Origin: Clostridia bacterium
GTDB taxonomy: Bacteria > Bacillota > Clostridia > Oscillospirales > CAG-272
Direction of reading: 5' to 3'
DNA: 64,000 nt
Assembly (NCBI GenBank): GCA_017471825.1
Contig: JAFURQ010000011.1
Span: 62,001 to 126,000 of the forward strand
Part shown: in pieces, positions 42,354 to 50,804 of the stretch
How positions within the stretch are numbered: position 1 is the stretch's first letter
Layout of the letters: each line of letters starts with the position of its first letter
Notes under the pieces: generated by a model
Databases searched by the model: none
What the model was told of the DNA's origin: nothing
What the model saw: only the letters and a program-made list of their open reading frames with translations
Translations under genes and position numbers: made by a program

Positions 42354-42893
42354 TCATCTTTTTTTGATATTTGCAACAGCATTTTCGATTTTTGAAAGAT
42401 TAAGGCAGGAAAGCGCCGCCTTTAAGTACGCGGATTTATCAAATCCGTAGTCGTAAAAATACGCGTGCTCGCACAAATCGAAAGCGAGCTGAGGCATAAA
42501 ATTCGTCAAAGCTCGTGTCAGGTCGTTTTCAATACAATACTTTATCTCTCCCCTGCCGTTCAGATATATAAAAAGGAATTTAGCATCCTCTGCCTCACAG
42601 GCTCTGAAGAGCTGATACAGAAAGTTTGCCTCGCTGACGTACTGCCTTGAGAGGCTATCGCATCTCGCGCTTGATTGGTTAAAGGAATCAAAATATATTT
42701 CGTGGGCTAAAATCTCGCACTTTAATTTAAGCGCCTCCTCCCTCTCGCCCTTATTCATATTGAGCCTTGATATGCCATAACAGCTCTTGCCGCGGAGCGA
42801 GGGATAGGTTTTCTCAAAAATCGAAAGCCTAAGCTTTAAATTTCTCAAATACTCCTTGTGGAGCGATATGCTCGTTTCTGATAAAAACACCAT
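42354..42893 (-). CDS. divergent Fe/Mn superoxide dismutase-like protein
   Basis: A 179-residue protein whose regions line up with iron/manganese SODs: ISLHKEYLRNLKLRL in the first helix, ILAHEIYFDSF in the second, and FDLCEHAYFYDYGFDKSAYLKAALSCLN near the C-terminus. The last echoes the usual DVWEHAYYLDY...W..VNW. The four metal ligands (His, His, Asp, His) appear conserved in LHKEY, LAHEI and FDLCEHAY. Otherwise it is far from typical: it lacks the usual Trp residues and is shorter. It may be an active SOD or a related metal protein. The start at 42893 uses GAGAGG, which lies in a terminator-like hairpin. Confidence 0.65.
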   Translation of the reverse strand: MVFLSETSISLHKEYLRNLKLRLSIFEKTYPSLRGKSCYGISRLNMNKGEREEALKLKCEILAHEIYFDSFNQSSARCDSLSRQYVSEANFLYQLFRACEAEDAKFLFIYLNGRGEIKYCIENDLTRALTNFMPQLAFDLCEHAYFYDYGFDKSAYLKAALSCLNLSKIENAVANIKKR

Positions 42894-42942
42894 AACAAAA
42901 ACCTCTCTTACTGCTTTTATATGCAAAAGAGAGGTTTTTGTT
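42894..42942 (-). terminator. hairpin between hslO and the SOD-like gene, covering its ribosome binding site
   Basis: A 16-bp stem pairs 42894-42909 with 42927-42942. On the minus strand the 3' arm reads AAGAGAGGTTTTTGTT and ends exactly at the ATG of the SOD-like gene. It looks like a terminator 4 bases after the hslO stop. Yet the GAGAGG inside it is the only ribosome binding site for the next gene, so it may regulate both transcription and translation. Confidence 0.7.
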
Positions 42943-42946
42943 GATA

Positions 42947-43834
42947 TCAGCCCAGAAGGTCTTGTTCGGTATAGGTATATTCGCCGTTACAGAAGCGGCA
43001 GATTGCGGTGAGCTCGCGAGCCTTACCCTCTGCCTCTTGCTCGTCGAAAAGCTTTCTCAGCTCTTCTTTTCCGAGCGAGAGAAGCTTTTTACGCATACGC
43101 TTACGCGAGCAATCGCATTTGTATTCAACCTCAAGCGTATCGAATACGTCGTACGGAATATCGCGAAGGGCTATATCGGCGATTTCGGCATTAGTCATTC
43201 CGCGCTCGAAGCATCTTGAAATATTCGAAAGGTCTTGAGCATTGCGCTCAAGAATATCAACCGTTTTATCATCCGGGAACGGAAGGAGCTGAACGAGCAC
43301 TCCGCCTGCCGCAAGGCAGGTATAATCCTTGTCTACAAGGACGCCGAGCGAAAGTAGCGTCGGCACCTGCTCGCTGTTAGCAAAATACGAGGCGATATCC
43401 TCTGCAATCTCACCCGTTACTATCTCTGTCATACCGACCTGAGGCTCTCCCTCTCCGACCTGCTTGACAAAGCTCAGAGTTCCTGCACCGACTGCCGCTC
43501 CGACGTCGAGCTTTCCGTTCGGCTTTTTCGGGGGATTGGCGTTGGGGTTCTGAATATATCCCTTTACGTTGCCGTAATAGTCCGCTACTCCTATCAGCTT
43601 TCCTGCTTCGCCGTTACCTGCAAAGGTTATGGTCACGGTATCCTTGTTTTCCGGGAGCATAGTTCCTATCATAGAGGCGGCGGTAACTATTCTGCCGAGT
43701 GCCGCGGTTGCCGTGGGTGTGGTTTTATGAGTTTTTATCATCTCGTTAACCATTTCTCTTGAATTTATAACGAGGATTCGTGCCGAGCCGTCCTGTGTCA
43801 TTGCTCGCAGTATCGTTGATTTTTTTGTTTCCAC
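42947..43834 (-). CDS. hslO: redox-regulated molecular chaperone Hsp33
   Basis: A 295-residue Hsp33. The N-terminal domain includes GRIVTAASMIGTMLPENK and the GYIQNPNANPPKKPNGKLDVGAAVG-type glycine region; the C-terminal zinc domain carries CDCSRKRM and CRFC, giving the conserved CxC and CxxC set. Oxidation of these Cys releases zinc and turns the protein into a holdase chaperone. The start is a GTG at 43834. It follows the methyltransferase gene by 16 bases in the TerB-ATPase-helicase transcript. Confidence 0.96.
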   Translation of the reverse strand: METKKSTILRAMTQDGSARILVINSREMVNEMIKTHKTTPTATAALGRIVTAASMIGTMLPENKDTVTITFAGNGEAGKLIGVADYYGNVKGYIQNPNANPPKKPNGKLDVGAAVGAGTLSFVKQVGEGEPQVGMTEIVTGEIAEDIASYFANSEQVPTLLSLGVLVDKDYTCLAAGGVLVQLLPFPDDKTVDILERNAQDLSNISRCFERGMTNAEIADIALRDIPYDVFDTLEVEYKCDCSRKRMRKKLLSLGKEELRKLFDEQEAEGKARELTAICRFCNGEYTYTEQDLLG

Positions 43835-43850: not shown

Positions 43851-44609
43851 TTACTTAATGCAACGGGCAACGATATATATTCTGTCGTCGCCGTCGGTGG
43901 CATTTTTAAAATTGAAATCGGAATATGCACCGAGAAATTCGAAGCCCGTCTGTGCGAGGGCATTTTTCATTGATTTAAGCGTGTACATTCGCTCACGCTG
44001 TGCCTCGTCATAGCGCTCGTAGGTTCCCTCCTCGGTTTCCGAAAAGAGCGTGATATAGAAATCGCAAAGCTTGCTTTTTGGGTTATAAAAATTCTGCCAC
44101 ACGCAGAGCGAGCCTTCCGTTTCCATCACGTAGCTACGGTCTGCATATACGTTTTCAAATTTGTGCTTGCCGTTTATATCAAAAATAAATATTCCGTTCG
44201 GGATAAGATAATTATGAACCAATGACAGACATTTTTTCAGCTGTGCGGGGGTTGTGAGGTGATTTATGCAATCGAGGCAGGACACTGTCACGTCGACGGT
44301 GCCGTAAAGCTCAAATTCGCACATATCCTGACACAGCCAGAGGATTTTACCGCCGAAGCCGAGCGCCTCTGCGCGCTCGCGCGCTATATCGAGCATCTCA
44401 ACCGAGATGTCAATACCCGTCATATCGTAGCCGCGCTTTGCAAGCTCTACGGTCATGCTTCCCGTGCCACAGCCCATATCGAGCACGAGCTCCGGCTTGC
44501 CGAGGGTGTATTCCTTGGAAATTATTTCCTCTATGAAATCCGCCCATCCGGAATAGTCTATATCCTTATTTATTTCATCGTACACGTTTGCTAACAGGTC
44601 GTACATCAT
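43851..44609 (-). CDS. class I SAM-dependent methyltransferase
   Basis: A 252-residue Rossmann methyltransferase. The SAM loop is LDMGCGTGSMTVELAKRGYD (about 42-61), followed by GIDISVEMLDIA, a LSCLDCINHL motif IV-like segment and IFDINGKHKF. A small beta-rich C-terminal part (about 150-252) resembles many uncharacterised methyltransferases; the substrate cannot be assigned. The start overlaps the helicase stop by 4 bases, which ties it to the TerB-ATPase-helicase cassette. Confidence 0.88.
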   Translation of the reverse strand: MMYDLLANVYDEINKDIDYSGWADFIEEIISKEYTLGKPELVLDMGCGTGSMTVELAKRGYDMTGIDISVEMLDIARERAEALGFGGKILWLCQDMCEFELYGTVDVTVSCLDCINHLTTPAQLKKCLSLVHNYLIPNGIFIFDINGKHKFENVYADRSYVMETEGSLCVWQNFYNPKSKLCDFYITLFSETEEGTYERYDEAQRERMYTLKSMKNALAQTGFEFLGAYSDFNFKNATDGDDRIYIVARCIK

Positions 44610-46843
44610 ATATAAATTTCCCCGCTTTCAAATCTTTCTGTTATCTCGTCGGCAAGGAGCCTATCCGTTGCATACGAGAGGCGTAAAAGCTCCGGCGGAA
44701 TAAATTCGTCGAATTTATCGAACACGGGACATTCACCGTCCGAAACGAGCGCCTCGGTATCAAGCCCGTCGCGGTCTATTATAGCGTCTATCGAGCGAAG
44801 GAGTCCTTCGCCCATATCCTTGCTTTTCGCCTTGAAGGTGATATAACAGCAGCCCTCGCTCTGTATATCGGATATACCGAGCTCCGAGGCGTACTTTTGC
44901 ATCAGGCGGCGCATTGTTCTGAACGAACGGGTGCCAAGCCACGGGAAAAATGCGTAGCTTTGACCGCCGAGGAATATCACACATTTTTCACCCATTCGGG
45001 CGTTTTCTGCCACTCTGCGCGCATTTTCAAGGCGAGAGGCGGCGTTTTCGCCGAGGTATGCATACTGCTTTGTGCCGAGGAGAGCCTCACGCATAGCCAA
45101 TAGCAGCTTGGTGTGTATCTCACCGCCGTCGCCGGGCCATGAGATTTCCATTTTTCCCTCTACCGCCTTGACGAATATAAGCCTGCGCGGCACGTCCACC
45201 TCCTTAACCTCCCACACTCTGCCTGCGAGGGCAAAGCGGTCGCCTACGGGCACGGGATTGGTTATGGTGCCTATTTCCTCGCTGTCGCAACGCACGGTAT
45301 AGTCCTCACTATCCTTGAATACGGCGTAAAATTTGTAGGAATTGGTGATTTTTTCGCCTGCGAGACCGATAATCAGTCCCTTTTGCTCGGTGAGCTCGAT
45401 GTAATCGGAGTTTATCATTGACACGAGGAGCGAGCGGTATATCTCCTTTGGCAGCTCTGAAAGAGGCGGAAGTGAGAGCACGCGCTCTGCGAGTGCCTTG
45501 GGCGAGAGCTCGCCAAGCGAGGCAATAGTGCTCAGTGTCTGGTGAAAGGCGAGGCTGAGAGGCATTTTTCTGATTTTCGGGGGCTCTATAAAGCGCTCCG
45601 AGGAATACAGCTCGATTATCGCTATGCCGCGCAGAAGCTCCCACGGAATAATCTCCGGAAGCGGTGCGTTGGGAAGCGGTGTTTCCTCTCTGTAAACCAT
45701 TATCATCTCGGGGGGGGAGCCTCGTCTGCCCGAACGGCCGAGGCGCTGAAGGAAGCCTGCTACCGTCGTGGGAGAGCCAACCTGCGCTACGCGCTCAAGC
45801 TTGCCTATATCTATACCGAGTTCCATCGTTACGGTGGCACAGGTTACAACGGCACCCGAGGTGTCGTCCTTCATTTTCAGCTCGGCATCCTCACGCAGTG
45901 AGGCAGAGAGGTTGCCGTGATGAATCAGAAAAATATCGTCGTCGCCGCGGTGGCGCGCTATCTGACGAAGGGTTGCCGTAACGTACTCGGTTTCCTCTCT
46001 TGAATTGGAGAAAACCAGCGCTTTTTTGCCATAGACGGCATCGTAGAGAAATTCATAGCCTGCATCGAGGCTTGCTCTGCCGCCTCTGTCCTTGTGTGCG
46101 CCCTCACCCTGATTTTCGTTTTGATCCTGAACGTAGAAATGCTCAAGACCGAGGCGCCATTTGAGCGGTACCCTCGGGGGCACGGGGGCGGCGGTATCGC
46201 GGCCACTGCCTGCGCCGAGCCACTCTGCCGCGAGAGAAAGGTCGCCAAGGGTGGCGCTGAGTCCAACTCTGCGAGGATTATAGCCTATAAGACGGGCGAG
46301 GCGCGAGAGCAGGCAGATTACCTGATTGCCTCGGTCGGCGCCGATGAGGGCGTGAATTTCATCAATAACTATATATCGGAGCGCACCGAAAATGCGCGGT
46401 ATGTCGTTTGAACGGTTTATTATCATCGATTCAAGCGATTCCGGGGTTATCTGAAGTATGCCCTGCGGATTTTTCAAGAGCTTGGTTTTGTGAGACTGAC
46501 CGACGTCGCCGTGCCAATGCGTGAGCGGAATGCCGACTCCGTCAAGGAGCTCGTCGAGGCGGTAAAACTGGTCGTTGATAAGCGATTTCAGAGGTGCTAT
46601 ATACAAAACGGAGACGGATGGCACCTCGGGCGGATTTTCAACAATATCCGCGATTATCGGGAAAAACGCGGCTTCGGTTTTACCCGAGGCTGTCGACGAG
46701 GAAAGGAGAAGATTCGAGTCGGTATTGAATATTACGTCCGCCGCGGCGAGCTGAATATCACGCAGCTCACTCCAGCCGTGAGAGTAGATATATTCCTTTA
46801 TAAAATCCGGGAACCGAGCAAAAACTCTATCTGCATCAGTCAT
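44606..46843 (-). CDS. Lhr-like (BrxHI-type) DEAD/DEAH-box helicase
   Basis: A 745-residue SF2 helicase. Motif I is SSTASGKTEAAFF (about residue 50), then IAPLKSLINDQ, TPESLE, motif II VIDEIHALIGADRG, GLSATLGD, and the second RecA domain with TMELGIDIG and motif VI FLQRLGRSGRRG. A C-terminal region (about 500-745) fits the winged-helix/beta-barrel extension of Lhr-type enzymes. Its size fits the BrxHI group found in some BREX loci. AAAGGAG precedes the start, 24 bases after the ATPase gene. No nuclease domain is visible. Confidence 0.9.
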   Translation of the reverse strand: MTDADRVFARFPDFIKEYIYSHGWSELRDIQLAAADVIFNTDSNLLLSSSTASGKTEAAFFPIIADIVENPPEVPSVSVLYIAPLKSLINDQFYRLDELLDGVGIPLTHWHGDVGQSHKTKLLKNPQGILQITPESLESMIINRSNDIPRIFGALRYIVIDEIHALIGADRGNQVICLLSRLARLIGYNPRRVGLSATLGDLSLAAEWLGAGSGRDTAAPVPPRVPLKWRLGLEHFYVQDQNENQGEGAHKDRGGRASLDAGYEFLYDAVYGKKALVFSNSREETEYVTATLRQIARHRGDDDIFLIHHGNLSASLREDAELKMKDDTSGAVVTCATVTMELGIDIGKLERVAQVGSPTTVAGFLQRLGRSGRRGSPPEMIMVYREETPLPNAPLPEIIPWELLRGIAIIELYSSERFIEPPKIRKMPLSLAFHQTLSTIASLGELSPKALAERVLSLPPLSELPKEIYRSLLVSMINSDYIELTEQKGLIIGLAGEKITNSYKFYAVFKDSEDYTVRCDSEEIGTITNPVPVGDRFALAGRVWEVKEVDVPRRLIFVKAVEGKMEISWPGDGGEIHTKLLLAMREALLGTKQYAYLGENAASRLENARRVAENARMGEKCVIFLGGQSYAFFPWLGTRSFRTMRRLMQKYASELGISDIQSEGCCYITFKAKSKDMGEGLLRSIDAIIDRDGLDTEALVSDGECPVFDKFDEFIPPELLRLSYATDRLLADEITERFESGEIYI

Positions 46844-46867
46844 TTAATTTCTCCTTTCTGCCTTGTT

Positions 46868-48232
46868 TTATATATCAATATCGAATAAACTTATTTTTCC
46901 TTTAGGTTGTTCTCCGAGCGGTGCGCCTGCAGGCTCCGTGGGCGCTTCGGCGCGGAGCGTGACACTGCCGAGAAGCTCGTCAAAGGTTGCGGTGGGGTTA
47001 TCTCGCAGTATGTTGAGAAGGGTCAGAAAATCTCTGATTATCTCACGCGGAGTTATCATTTCGTCCGCTCCTGCACGGGCGGTTGCGTTGCGTATGAAGC
47101 GCTCTATTTCGGCATCGGTAACGAGCGGAATATCGGTGTCATACCTCTGCATCATAAGCTTGGAGAGTCTTTTCGCGAGGGCCAAAAGCTCGTTATCCGA
47201 GAGTCGACGCAGGCGTATTACTGGGGTTGAGAGATTCTGGTAGCCGAGCTCCGAATATCTTGAATCGGTGAGTCTGCTTTTCAGGGCGTCGTAGCTGAAG
47301 AGTCCGCGACGGGTATCCTCAAGAAATTGGGGTGTACCGCCGAAGATAACGCCAAGGCTTTTTGCCTTGCCCTGAAGGGTGTCGTTGAAAATTGCGAGAA
47401 GCTTTTCATAATTTGCTTCTCTTGAGATTCTGTTCGGTATTTTATACAGGTTTACGCATTCGTCGATAAAGAGTATAAGTCCTGTGTAGCCGAGCTTTAC
47501 GGAAAGCGAGGCGAAGAGCTTGATATAGTTATACCAATTCTCGTCGTCGATTACCGTACTGACGTTAAAGCCGAGGGCGGCTCTTGCCTCTGTTTTAGTG
47601 GAAAATTCGCCGCGAAGCCAGCGCAGGCAGGCACTTTTCCTCTCTGCATCGTCACGCATAGAGGCTGAATAATATTCACCGAGGACGCCTGCAAAATCGA
47701 AGCCGCCGACGTCACCCTCAAGCTCGGAGAGTGTGATATATACCTTCTTTTTCAGCTCTGCCTCAAAGCTTGGAGAATCGGGGAGTATTCCATCTGCTAC
47801 GAGCTCGGTTTTGAGCTTGGTATAATGCCGTGAGAGAACGGTTGCGAGTGCGCCGCCGTCGGGAGATGCCTTGGTTGCGAGATTTATCATCAGCTCCTTA
47901 TAGGTTGCGAGTCCTGCACCGTTACCGCCCGTGAGCCGTCTTTCAGGCGAGAGGTCGGCATCGGCACAGATAAAGCCGCGCTCAAGGGCGTGTCCGCGTA
48001 TAAGTTGAATAAGGAAGCTTTTACCGCTTCCGTAGCGGCCTATGAGAAAGCGGGAAAACGCGCCTCCCTCGGCAACCGTGTCAAGATTGTCGAGAAGAGA
48101 GTTTATCTCCTCCTTACGTCCGATGGCGATATAAGGCGCGCCGATTCTGGGCACGACTCCTGCTGCCAGGGAGGCGAGCAGTGTATTTAATATTCGCTTC
48201 GGAACCTTTATTTCATTATTTTCAAAAGCCAT
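46868..48232 (-). CDS. BREX-type P-loop ATPase (DUF2791/BrxD-like)
   Basis: A 454-residue ATPase. Walker A is LIGRYGSGKSFLIQ (about residue 65); Walker B is LILFIDECVNLYK (about 252), followed by GVIFGGTPQFLEDTRRGLFSY. The N-terminus KVPKRILNTLLASLAAGVVPRIGAPYIAIGR matches the BREX ATP-binding family (DUF2791), called BrxD in type 2 BREX. Its C-terminal end is proline-rich before LFDIDI. It overlaps the TerB gene by 25 bases and lies just ahead of the Lhr-like helicase, the same pairing seen for BrxD with BrxHI. No pglX, pglZ or brxL is nearby. Confidence 0.88.
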   Translation of the reverse strand: MAFENNEIKVPKRILNTLLASLAAGVVPRIGAPYIAIGRKEEINSLLDNLDTVAEGGAFSRFLIGRYGSGKSFLIQLIRGHALERGFICADADLSPERRLTGGNGAGLATYKELMINLATKASPDGGALATVLSRHYTKLKTELVADGILPDSPSFEAELKKKVYITLSELEGDVGGFDFAGVLGEYYSASMRDDAERKSACLRWLRGEFSTKTEARAALGFNVSTVIDDENWYNYIKLFASLSVKLGYTGLILFIDECVNLYKIPNRISREANYEKLLAIFNDTLQGKAKSLGVIFGGTPQFLEDTRRGLFSYDALKSRLTDSRYSELGYQNLSTPVIRLRRLSDNELLALAKRLSKLMMQRYDTDIPLVTDAEIERFIRNATARAGADEMITPREIIRDFLTLLNILRDNPTATFDELLGSVTLRAEAPTEPAGAPLGEQPKGKISLFDIDI

Positions 48233-49791
48233 TTTTCAATATCCTCTCTGTAATCGTCGATTACTGTATAGCCCTCGTCGGCGGGCTCAAGTATAACGTC
48301 ACCGAAGCCGTCAGCGAAGGCTTCGTTTATTTCGTCGGCAAGCGAGTCAGCAAGCTCGCCCGTGCTTGCGGCTATTTCAGCCATTTTTGCGGTATCGGCA
48401 GTAAGGGCGGCGCGGACAAACTCGATGCGACTGCCGCTCAAGCCGTAGGTATCAACCGCGACCTCGGGCTGAGCGGTGCTATCCGCTTTTTCCTCGGGCT
48501 CTTCCGACGTATCGGGCGCATATTCCTCCACGTCCTCGACAAGACGTGCGGTGGTCAGCCACGACGAGCGCTCTATTTCATCGGCGTCCGTGGTGGAGAT
48601 ACCGTTGCTTTCCGCCTCGTAGAGCTTCTCATATTCGGGACGGGCGGCGCGCGCTCTTTCCCTATTGACCTTATCAAAAAGCTCGTTGAAATAGCCGTCT
48701 ATGAGCTCGCGGTATTCCTGCGGGAGCTCCTTTACGGCGAGGCGGCTTTTCACGCCCATGAGGGCGCGGAGCTTATTTTCCGTGTATTTGAGGGCGGCGG
48801 TGACTGTGCCGCGAAGCTCGGATTCCTCACATATCGGGCGGTATTCCACGGTTATTCTGTATTTTATAGCCGAGGTGGTGAGCATTGAGCGGAAGGCAAA
48901 GCGCTCGAGCCTTGCGGTTTCCGAATTTTCCTTCAATATTTTTCCGCCGTGCAGAAGGCGAGAAATTATGAGAGTCATAGCTCCCGTCAGGTGCTTTGCG
49001 TACGCTTCCCTGCTATCGCCGCCTGCGTATTTACCCGAGCGCCAATCGTAGTCCGAAAGATATGACACGACAGACAAAACTCCCTCCTGTCCGAGAATTT
49101 CGGCATCGGAGAGGAAAAACTCCTTAAAGCCCGAGCTACCTATTGCGGTAAATATAAAATCGCGGATTCTGTCCATAGGACAGTCAATGCCGTAGACCAG
49201 GCAATAGTCCTGTATCCAGAGCGACATATTTGCATCAATATTCGGGAGCTGCTTACGGTAGGCACACCACAGGTCAATGAGCATTTCCACACCGCGCTCG
49301 GGCGGTATGAGCTCGGGAAGATTTATAATTTCGTACACGTAAAGGTAGAAATAAGAATAGTCGGTTTTGATATATTTTTTCTTCCTTACCATCGAGCGCC
49401 AATAGAAGTAGTAGCTCTTCTGCGGCTGGGTAAGCTGAATATACTGCGGCATATAGGAATAGTAGGGTGCAAATTCGCATTCCGGAGCCTTGAAATCGTA
49501 ATACAGCGTTGCCGCCTTAACGAAGCTTGCGTAGTAATCGTACTTATCGGGGGTGCGGCGGATTATTACGCGCTTGATGAGTCCCTCGGTGCGTGTATAT
49601 ACCCTTTCCTCTGCGGTGGCGTTTCCACCGACTGCAGTGAGCCTGTTTCGTTCCGGGGGGGATGACTCGGCATCACCGGGAATCGATACGTCGGAGAGCT
49701 TTCCCTTGGTTGAAAAGGGGGCGGCGGTTGATTTTTTCTTTGGAACGAGCTTTGAGATATCCCAAAACGCATCCTTTTCGTCAACGGACAT
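48208..49791 (-). CDS. TerB-N / TerB-C domain protein
   Basis: A 527-residue protein. After a low-complexity N-terminus (about 1-85) a TerB-N-like region is recognisable by YMPQYIQLTQPQKSYYFYWRS and FYLYVYEIINL (about residues 110-200). The C-terminus (about 435-527, GLSGSRIEFVRAALTADTAK to ADEGYTVIDDYREDIEKWL) matches the TerB-C pattern. An acidic linker separates the two. TerB domains occur in tellurite/stress-response and predicted DNA-processing neighbourhoods; the biochemical activity is unknown. As the first gene after a consensus promoter, it probably acts with the ATPase and helicase downstream. Confidence 0.78.
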   Translation of the reverse strand: MSVDEKDAFWDISKLVPKKKSTAAPFSTKGKLSDVSIPGDAESSPPERNRLTAVGGNATAEERVYTRTEGLIKRVIIRRTPDKYDYYASFVKAATLYYDFKAPECEFAPYYSYMPQYIQLTQPQKSYYFYWRSMVRKKKYIKTDYSYFYLYVYEIINLPELIPPERGVEMLIDLWCAYRKQLPNIDANMSLWIQDYCLVYGIDCPMDRIRDFIFTAIGSSGFKEFFLSDAEILGQEGVLSVVSYLSDYDWRSGKYAGGDSREAYAKHLTGAMTLIISRLLHGGKILKENSETARLERFAFRSMLTTSAIKYRITVEYRPICEESELRGTVTAALKYTENKLRALMGVKSRLAVKELPQEYRELIDGYFNELFDKVNRERARAARPEYEKLYEAESNGISTTDADEIERSSWLTTARLVEDVEEYAPDTSEEPEEKADSTAQPEVAVDTYGLSGSRIEFVRAALTADTAKMAEIAASTGELADSLADEINEAFADGFGDVILEPADEGYTVIDDYREDIEKWLLKIMK

Positions 49792-49835: not shown

Positions 49836-49864
49836 ATTATATCATATACACCGTTGATTGTCAA
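49836..49864 (-). promoter_or_regulatory. consensus promoter of the TerB-ATPase-helicase operon
   Basis: A perfect TTGACA (49864-49859), a 17-base spacer and a perfect TATAAT (49841-49836) on the minus strand, about 45 bases before the TerB gene. This suggests strong basal expression rather than tight repression. No operator-like repeat was seen around it. Confidence 0.85.
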
Positions 49865-49877
49865 CATTTTTGAGGAC

Positions 49878-49912
49878 AAAAAAACGCGTACCGAGCTCTT
49901 TTTCGGTACGCA
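49878..49912 (-). terminator. rho-independent terminator of ispE
   Basis: A 9-bp stem (49886-49894 with 49903-49911) around an 8-base loop, followed on the minus strand by GTTTTTTTG, 8 bases after the ispE stop. Confidence 0.87.
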
Positions 49913-49919
49913 TTTGAGG

Positions 49920-50804
49920 TTATTCGACGAGGCGTGTATAATAGGCTCTGTATTTTTCGGCGCGGAGAGCGAGGCAGGCATTTTTCGATGCTTCAAGGCT
50001 GTCGAAGATTCCGAATACCGAGGGGCCGCTTCCGCTCATCATAGCTACTCTCGCGCCGAGCTCGGCAAGGCGCCGTTTGATAGCGGTGGCACCCGGGCAG
50101 GACGGAAGGACTGCGTCCTCGAAGACGTTGAAAAAGCCGTCTGTATCAAGCTTATCCTCGGAAAGAGATGCAATAAGCCTATCAAAATGCGGCTCACCGC
50201 CCGTTAAGCGCTCACCGTTGAAATCCGAGTAAACGCTGTCGAGAGATTTATATGCGACGGGGGTTGATATGTGTTCATTTGCTATTGCGATAACCACGTA
50301 TGCCTTGGCTTTGGTTTTGATTTTGGTGAGTATCTCTCCTCTGCCCTCGCACAGAGCGCATTTGCCGTACAGACAGTAGACCACGTCACTGCCGAGCTCC
50401 GCGCCTATCGAATTCAGTGCAGATACGGAAAACAGTCTGCCGTAGAGCTTATTCATAGCCCTCAAAACCGCGGCGGCATCGGACGAGCCGCCCGCAAGTC
50501 CTGCGGCGACGGGAATACGCTTTTCAAGCTTTATTTCAACCGCGGCGTTGATTTTTGCTTTTTCGAGGAACAAAAGTGCGGCGCGGACGGCAAGATTTCT
50601 TGAATCGGTGGGGAGAAATTTATTTTCTCCGACGGTAATCTGTACCGTGGTTTTTGCCGAGGGGGAAACCGAAACGGTTATATCGTCACCAAAGGTGACG
50701 GAGTGCATAACGGTTTTTATATCGTGGAAGCCGTCGGCTCTTTTTGTAAGGACGTCGAGATAAAGATTTATCTTGGCGTTTGCTTTTTCCTTTACCGTTT
50801 TCAT
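49920..50804 (-). CDS. ispE: 4-diphosphocytidyl-2-C-methyl-D-erythritol kinase
   Basis: A 294-residue GHMP kinase. It has KANAKINLYLDVLTKRADGFHDI at the N-terminus, the ATP loop PVAAGLAGGSSDAAAVLRAMN, and a late MSGSGPSVFGIFDS block. It phosphorylates CDP-methylerythritol in the non-mevalonate isoprenoid pathway, the step after IspD. AAGGAGG lies before the start. It is monocistronic, divergent from rpsF. Confidence 0.96.
   Translation of the reverse strand: MKTVKEKANAKINLYLDVLTKRADGFHDIKTVMHSVTFGDDITVSVSPSAKTTVQITVGENKFLPTDSRNLAVRAALLFLEKAKINAAVEIKLEKRIPVAAGLAGGSSDAAAVLRAMNKLYGRLFSVSALNSIGAELGSDVVYCLYGKCALCEGRGEILTKIKTKAKAYVVIAIANEHISTPVAYKSLDSVYSDFNGERLTGGEPHFDRLIASLSEDKLDTDGFFNVFEDAVLPSCPGATAIKRRLAELGARVAMMSGSGPSVFGIFDSLEASKNACLALRAEKYRAYYTRLVE

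Follow-up and report, generated by a model that had tools for sequence, protein, structure and literature searches.

Three adjacent genes on the minus strand of the window (the whole stretch of DNA analysed, 64,000 nucleotides), referred to here as sngA, sngB and sngC, are listed with their neighbouring features in Table 1. The original prediction had described the three genes as overlapping or lying within 25 bases of each other, and the ORF coordinates agree, with an overlap of 25 bases between sngA and sngB and a gap of 24 bases between sngB and sngC. The predicted TerB-N, TerB-C and DUF2791 domains were all recovered by Pfam search, with TerB_N (6.7e-18) and TerB_C (1.8e-11) matched in SngA, and BrxC_BrxD (PF10923, of which we take DUF2791 to be the older name) matched in SngB (3.7e-147). 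SngC was matched by DEAD (2.4e-27) and Helicase_C (7.8e-13), and in NCBIfam by large ATP-dependent helicases such as TIGR04121 and PRK09751 (the latter presumably Lhr); the label 'Lhr-like' given to this helicase is a fair one, although the NCBIfam matches behind it all fall below the cut-off. SngB holds the sequences GRYGSGKS and LILFIDE, which we take to be its Walker A and Walker B motifs, and SngC holds TASGKTE, DEIH, SAT and QRLGRSGRRG, presumably its helicase motifs. The central TerB domain (PF05099) gave no match in the window SngA up to E = 1, and no recognisable nuclease was found in any of the three proteins by Pfam domain scan. Among solved structures, SngC aligned to YprA, Brr2 and other SF2 helicases, while SngB had no match (E to 0.01) and SngA a single, meaningless one (E 0.24).

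Table 1. Coordinates of the cassette genes and neighbouring features in the window
Feature	Position	Strand	Description
sngA	48208..49791	-	527 aa; TerB_N (residues 59-201) and TerB_C (417-519) protein
sngB	46868..48232	-	454 aa; BrxC/BrxD-type AAA+ ATPase
sngC	44606..46843	-	745 aa; SF2 helicase
Promoter TTGACA-17-TATAAT	49836..49864	-	12/12 sigma-70 match, TG before -10 box
Class I methyltransferase	43851..44609	-	Downstream of sngC, 4-base overlap with sngC
hslO (Hsp33; name by eye)	42947..43834	-	Kept downstream neighbour in host genus
ispE (name by eye)	49920..50804	-	Upstream neighbour
Terminator-like hairpin	49882..49915	-	After ispE, before promoter of sng unit

Promoter and transcription unit

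The perfect TTGACA-N17-TATAAT promoter that had been predicted upstream of the cassette was confirmed in the window, and it recurs across the loci of the host family more often than expected by chance. Of 39 family loci, 37 had a promoter with at least 11 of 12 matching positions and a 17-base spacer near the start of sngA, and in 22 it was perfect; the exceptions were one locus with none (L082) and one with a 10/12 match (L083). The background in the fetched sequence, 178 sites of this kind over 2.48 Mb of strand, corresponds to approximately 0.03 expected per stretch searched. This count leaves out L070, in which no SngA was returned by the ORF filter, and 16 class loci with an SngA BLAST score below 150; in a few loci the promoter site lay inside the called sngA ORF, the start of which was probably set too early. 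No strong conserved motif beyond the promoter boxes was seen in the 39 aligned rows. That the perfect promoter might serve as a special operator was considered and rejected, because the perfect TG-extended form is common across these genomes, with 49 copies in the window's own 1.63 Mb genome and 18 to 116 copies in each of seven other genomes. The sng promoter is thus best classified, from its sequence, as an ordinary strong promoter of the lineage, and the expression level is predicted from it. As a separate observation, eight genomes (G000, G009, G032, G062, G198, G115, G107 and G082) contained 18-116 perfect TG-extended promoters each and no copy of a reversed control pattern, pointing to a lineage fond of perfect sigma-70 promoters.

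Names of neighbouring genes (ispE, hslO, pfp, metK, ssb, rpsF, rpsR and alaS) were assigned by eye. The transcription unit probably runs on past sngC through the methyltransferase and hslO towards pfp, since the gaps are short and the genes lie on the same strand. The methyltransferase was considered as a fourth gene of the system and rejected, its sole PADLOC match being weak (mad2, 75.6 bits); it was read as a host gene because it also follows ispE in congeners that lack the cassette. Between hslO and pfp (window positions 42354-42926) lies a 190-aa protein that evolves fast and is matched by Sod_Fe_C; in part of the host-genus loci no match to this protein was found. Among 20 fetched host-genus loci, the methyltransferase and hslO directly followed the cassette in 19 (L103 was without both), and ispE directly preceded it in eight. 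The chromosomal site of the cassette differs between genera of the host family, from which it follows that the cassette does move.

Assignment to the Shango system

In PADLOC, the Shango models scored 180.7 bits (2.2e-53) on SngA, 534.6 on SngB and 772.5 on SngC, whereas the BREX models scored 150.2 (BrxD on SngB) and 396.6 (BrxHI on SngC), and none of them matched SngA, which was matched by the SngA model alone. The NCBIfam BrxD model reached 152 on SngB against a cut-off of 350, and the DpdJ, DruE and HamB models reached at most 115 bits on SngC. The same trio in the same order was found on plasmids of Paenibacillus cellulositrophicus and Pseudosulfitobacter pseudonitzschiae, the proteins of which also match the Shango models best, and ATPases similar to SngB were found on 691 plasmid records (a number in which the Shango and BrxD types are not told apart). 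Because the three Shango models match best and the same trio occurs on plasmids, the cassette is classified on these matches as a complete Shango system, that is, as a member of a known system. The original prediction had argued for a separate TerB-led system instead of an incomplete BREX, in agreement with the higher scores of the Shango models. The absence of PglZ, on which it had also relied, was borne out, as a search for PF08665 at E 0.001 found nothing in the window's genome (approximately 90% complete); no PglX, PglW or BrxL was present among the proteins scanned at the locus. That the cassette is a degenerate BREX type 2 remnant (BrxD and BrxHI) to which a TerB gene was added is highly improbable and was rejected on the model scores and the lack of a PglZ match: SngB and SngC are indeed related to BrxD and BrxHI, but the Shango models score approximately 3.6 times (SngB) and 1.9 times (SngC) higher, and the trio is also the unit carried by the two named plasmids. 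The relationship to BREX type 2 is thus that of a related pair of AAA+ ATPase and SF2 helicase, here accompanied by a TerB protein.

In the part of PMC10250203 available, the Shango system of Pseudomonas aeruginosa PA14 is described as combining a TerB-like protein with an ATPase and a helicase; upon cloning into strain PAO1 it lowered plating modestly, by 10- to 100-fold, for many of the phages tried, though not for every one. The same text mentions an earlier paper that tied Ter domains to anti-phage-like domains, in line with the comparative work on Ter gene neighbourhoods to which the prediction had referred. The gene content at the window locus (TerB protein, ATPase and helicase) is that of Shango in P. 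aeruginosa PA14 and E. coli, but the window lineage differs in being near-core and mostly vertically inherited, in having housekeeping surroundings rather than a defence hotspot, and in that SngC is unlinked in part of the host family. It also differs in that PF05099 TerB is listed for Shango in the section of PMC10952713 consulted, while the window SngA has no such match. The missing central TerB was nevertheless rejected as a mark of this lineage, and PF05099 was not taken as defining Shango, because the SngA of the Paenibacillus plasmid (identified by PADLOC) is also without PF05099. In a published helicase tree (PMC12278908, seen in part), SngC groups with BrxHI, DruE and DpdJ, a likeness shared with the helicases of Druantia, Dpd and Hachiman, the partner genes of which differ from those of Shango.

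Distribution, linkage and descent

SngB was detected by protein search in 49 of 69 genomes of the host genus (20 of 22 high-quality genomes) and in 166 of 246 genomes of the host-family sample (100 of 136 high-quality), with every listed match in the family at E 2.4e-69 or better. Using the SngB model at E 1e-70, it was found in 66 of 295 genomes of the order sample (51 of 225 high-quality), including 14 of the 25 host-family members therein, in 21 of 291 genomes of the class sample (14 of 236 high-quality), and in none of 14 well-known control genomes. The prevalence in high-quality genomes is therefore 74% in the host family versus 6% in the class. Two other families of the same order carried SngB in 12 of 22 (f93; 7 of 11 high-quality) and 11 of 21 genomes (f92; only 4 of 10 high-quality), respectively. 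PglZ, included as a control defence gene, was found in 11 of 246 host-family genomes (5 of them over the cut-off), and in 7 of the 136 high-quality ones. These prevalences are somewhat underestimated, since one genome counted as lacking SngB (G066) carries SngC on a short contig. For 10 of 14 named relatives, all of them uncultured, a ruminant gut site was given. For comparison, Shango is reported from less than 20% of Clostridium perfringens isolates (PMC13251782, in the part available), and in a survey RM genes were found to prefer Shango neighbours outside defence islands (PMC10924106, likewise in part). A near-core Shango lineage was not found in print in the part of the Shango literature covered. 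The predicted location in the core rather than in an island is supported by the survey of genus and family and by the housekeeping surroundings, but must be qualified by the absence of the cassette from some congeners.

Linkage of the three genes in other genomes, by which the prediction was to be judged, was found for all three on the two plasmids and for sngA and sngB throughout: in each of the 19 host-family loci fetched outside the host genus, SngA and SngB occurred together, with SngC alongside in 11 and absent from the locus in 8 (in three of these eight the next gene reads as alaS). Most genomes of the latter kind still possess SngC. SngB and SngC lay together in 87 and on different contigs in 51 of 138 genomes (drawn from 159 with both genes, one place not being listed for the other 21), although part of the 51 can be assembly breaks. 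The state of linkage was uniform in 28 of 32 genera with at least two genomes (16 linked and 12 apart), relative to a mean of 7.9 and a maximum of 16 after permutation. In seven genomes the flanking genes were read at both places, and the two loci are truly apart, SngB in one of them (G153) lying approximately 1.7 kb from a contig end. The search for SngC loci yielded 20 fetched loci, one of which (L186) showed no SngC by the ORF filter.

Among the 136 high-quality genomes, 99 had both SngB and SngC, 33 had neither, one had SngB only and three had SngC only (Fisher 5.5e-27 with relatedness ignored, counting SngB at E 0.001 and SngC at E 1e-80). Because the unlinked genes are still kept jointly, SngB and SngC are suggested to act as one machine, for which this joint keeping is the best evidence. 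In two genomes of one genus (g21), SngC was found in the same surroundings (L234:5049-7313 and L235:4690-6948) with SngB unmatched genome-wide, and these SngC-only loci are possibly relics.

Quick single-marker trees were compared for 27 of 30 genomes searched; G072, G095 and G168 were left out, one having no Ffh at the threshold and two no usable SngB or SngC. Between the trees of SngB and Ffh, 12 of 24 splits were in common (permuted mean 0.2, maximum 2) and the patristic r was 0.74; both trees are weakly resolved, 7 of their 24 inner branches being starred in either case. SngC tracked Ffh less well than SngB did (9 of 24 splits, r 0.56), and the SngB and SngC trees had 11 of 24 splits in common (r 0.74). 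In a broader tree of 54 SngB sequences, from which G095 and three loci of family f85 were left out for want of a usable SngB ORF and which used 11 of 21 genus sequences, 30 of 32 host-family members formed one clade (support 99) that adjoins f93 and then f92. The SngB of the remaining two (G074 and G076) was placed in a 12-row class-wide clade (support 100), from which it follows that the method detects transfer. Judging from the SngB tree, most of the sampled host family did not take its SngB from the class-wide pool.

Twenty genomes of the host genus were without an SngB match; ten of these were searched for hslO, eight had it, six were fetched and five were informative, the sixth being G066 with its SngC. 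All five showed the order ispE, methyltransferase, hslO and pfp with no Shango gene between, one of them having a 95-aa gene at the ispE/methyltransferase junction. For 20 Shango-carrying genomes and 5 lacking Shango (G067 being left out), a tree built from hslO, pfp and the methyltransferase required at least four changes of state. On this tree the absences in the genus were no more clustered than labels assigned at random, since 149 of 500 shuffles gave a value as low. Either independent losses or flank-driven exchange could have produced the scattered absences, a pattern that speaks more strongly than any other result against a strictly core locus.

Relative to the nearest congener, omega was 0.054 for SngB and 0.063 for SngC (hslO 0.079, pfp 0.098 and metK 0.028), and both proteins are under purifying selection. 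The dN values were 0.30 for SngA, 0.10 for SngB and 0.27 for ispE; positive selection on SngA was considered and is not supported, dS being saturated or nearly so (0.93 for ssb in a single pair and 1.7 or more otherwise).

Proposed mechanism and competing readings

The preferred explanation, to which we assign a probability of roughly 0.65, is that the cassette is a complete Shango system which in the host family occupies a chromosomal locus that is near-core, is passed on mostly by vertical descent and lies behind a strong promoter, with a mechanism of sensor, loader and motor. SngA would be the sensor or adaptor, its TerB domains recognising either a phage product or some state of DNA as it invades or replicates. 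SngB, an ORC/Cdc6-type AAA+ ATPase, would oligomerise with ATP and load or activate SngC, and SngC, a BrxHI-like SF2 helicase, would then translocate on or unwind DNA and thereby block DNA replication. The loader role of SngB is drawn by analogy from BrxD, proposed as a possible loader for the helicase BrxHI in the part of PMC12839542 available, and this proposal, together with the grouping of SngC with BrxHI, DruE and DpdJ, is the reason why the scheme is favoured. DNA is the presumed substrate, and anti-phage activity would be expected in these hosts; of this scheme, what has been observed is the set of parts and the retention of SngB and SngC together. Evidence against the preferred explanation lies in the scattered absences within the genus, as would be seen for an accessory or exchanged locus, in the differing chromosomal sites between genera, in the weak resolution of the single-marker trees, in the looser tracking of Ffh by SngC, in the low count in f92 and in the lack of a recognisable nuclease in the operon. 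No description of the Shango mechanism was found in the literature covered, as far as the available parts of it extend.

Additional genes follow SngC in two families. In family f93, a protein of 1,453-1,679 aa with a PDC-S37 match (84 to 203 bits) directly followed SngC in all three loci read (L243:12018-17057, L244:11605-16632 and L245:1708-6069), and two of the three carried a C-terminal MTES_1575 nuclease domain, which may supply the nuclease there. In family f85, a second helicase gene directly followed SngC in all three loci read (L239:12393-14291, L238:4129-5970 and L240:3786-5627); the one scanned for domains, that of L239, contained DEAD, Helicase_C, RecQ zinc-binding, RQC and HRDC.

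A related reading, which we regard as possible but doubtful, shares the descent part of the preferred explanation and differs in function, and the odds of the two overlap. Here the genes would encode a domesticated genome-maintenance complex, acting as a housekeeping helicase loader (in fork restart, or in R-loop or damage processing), with defence secondary or lost. Near-core prevalence with largely vertical descent, conservation of the strong promoter, co-retention of the unlinked parts, and purifying selection that acts on SngB and SngC about as strongly as on the host genes nearby are what such a role would predict. Against it stands the clean absence from five congeners, because of which Shango is considered dispensable, and the dN of SngA is approximately three times that of SngB, as might be seen in a recognition part engaged in conflict, although ispE evolves nearly as fast. 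Tentatively, one Shango lineage may have been domesticated into a near-core complex for DNA surveillance or genome maintenance in a group of gut Clostridia families, selection keeping the trans-acting SngA-SngB-SngC after the helicase gene had moved.

We consider it unlikely that the cassette is an ordinary accessory Shango system, common in these hosts through frequent recombination between relatives and without special core status. The changes of presence and absence inside the genus, at least four in number and scattered on the tree, would fit such a history, as would the Shango-free ispE/methyltransferase junction in the five informative congeners, of the kind that flank-driven homologous exchange would leave, the similar ATPases (Shango or BrxD type) on plasmid records, and the two host-family members with a class-wide type of SngB. 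The tracking of Ffh by SngB across genera, the co-retention of SngB with an unlinked SngC, and the much higher prevalence in high-quality genomes of the family than of the class all argue against it.

The system itself is already known, and under the preferred explanation the new element is a near-core, mostly vertical Shango lineage with a separable helicase. That SngC is unlinked and yet kept with SngA and SngB points to joint action of the three parts in trans, with SngA and SngB as a tight unit. A near-core, mostly vertically inherited immune operon provides a test case for when defence genes cease to be mobile, and raises the testable question of whether the sng genes are needed in the absence of phage. 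If domestication has indeed taken place, Shango would illustrate how mobile immunity can become core cell machinery.
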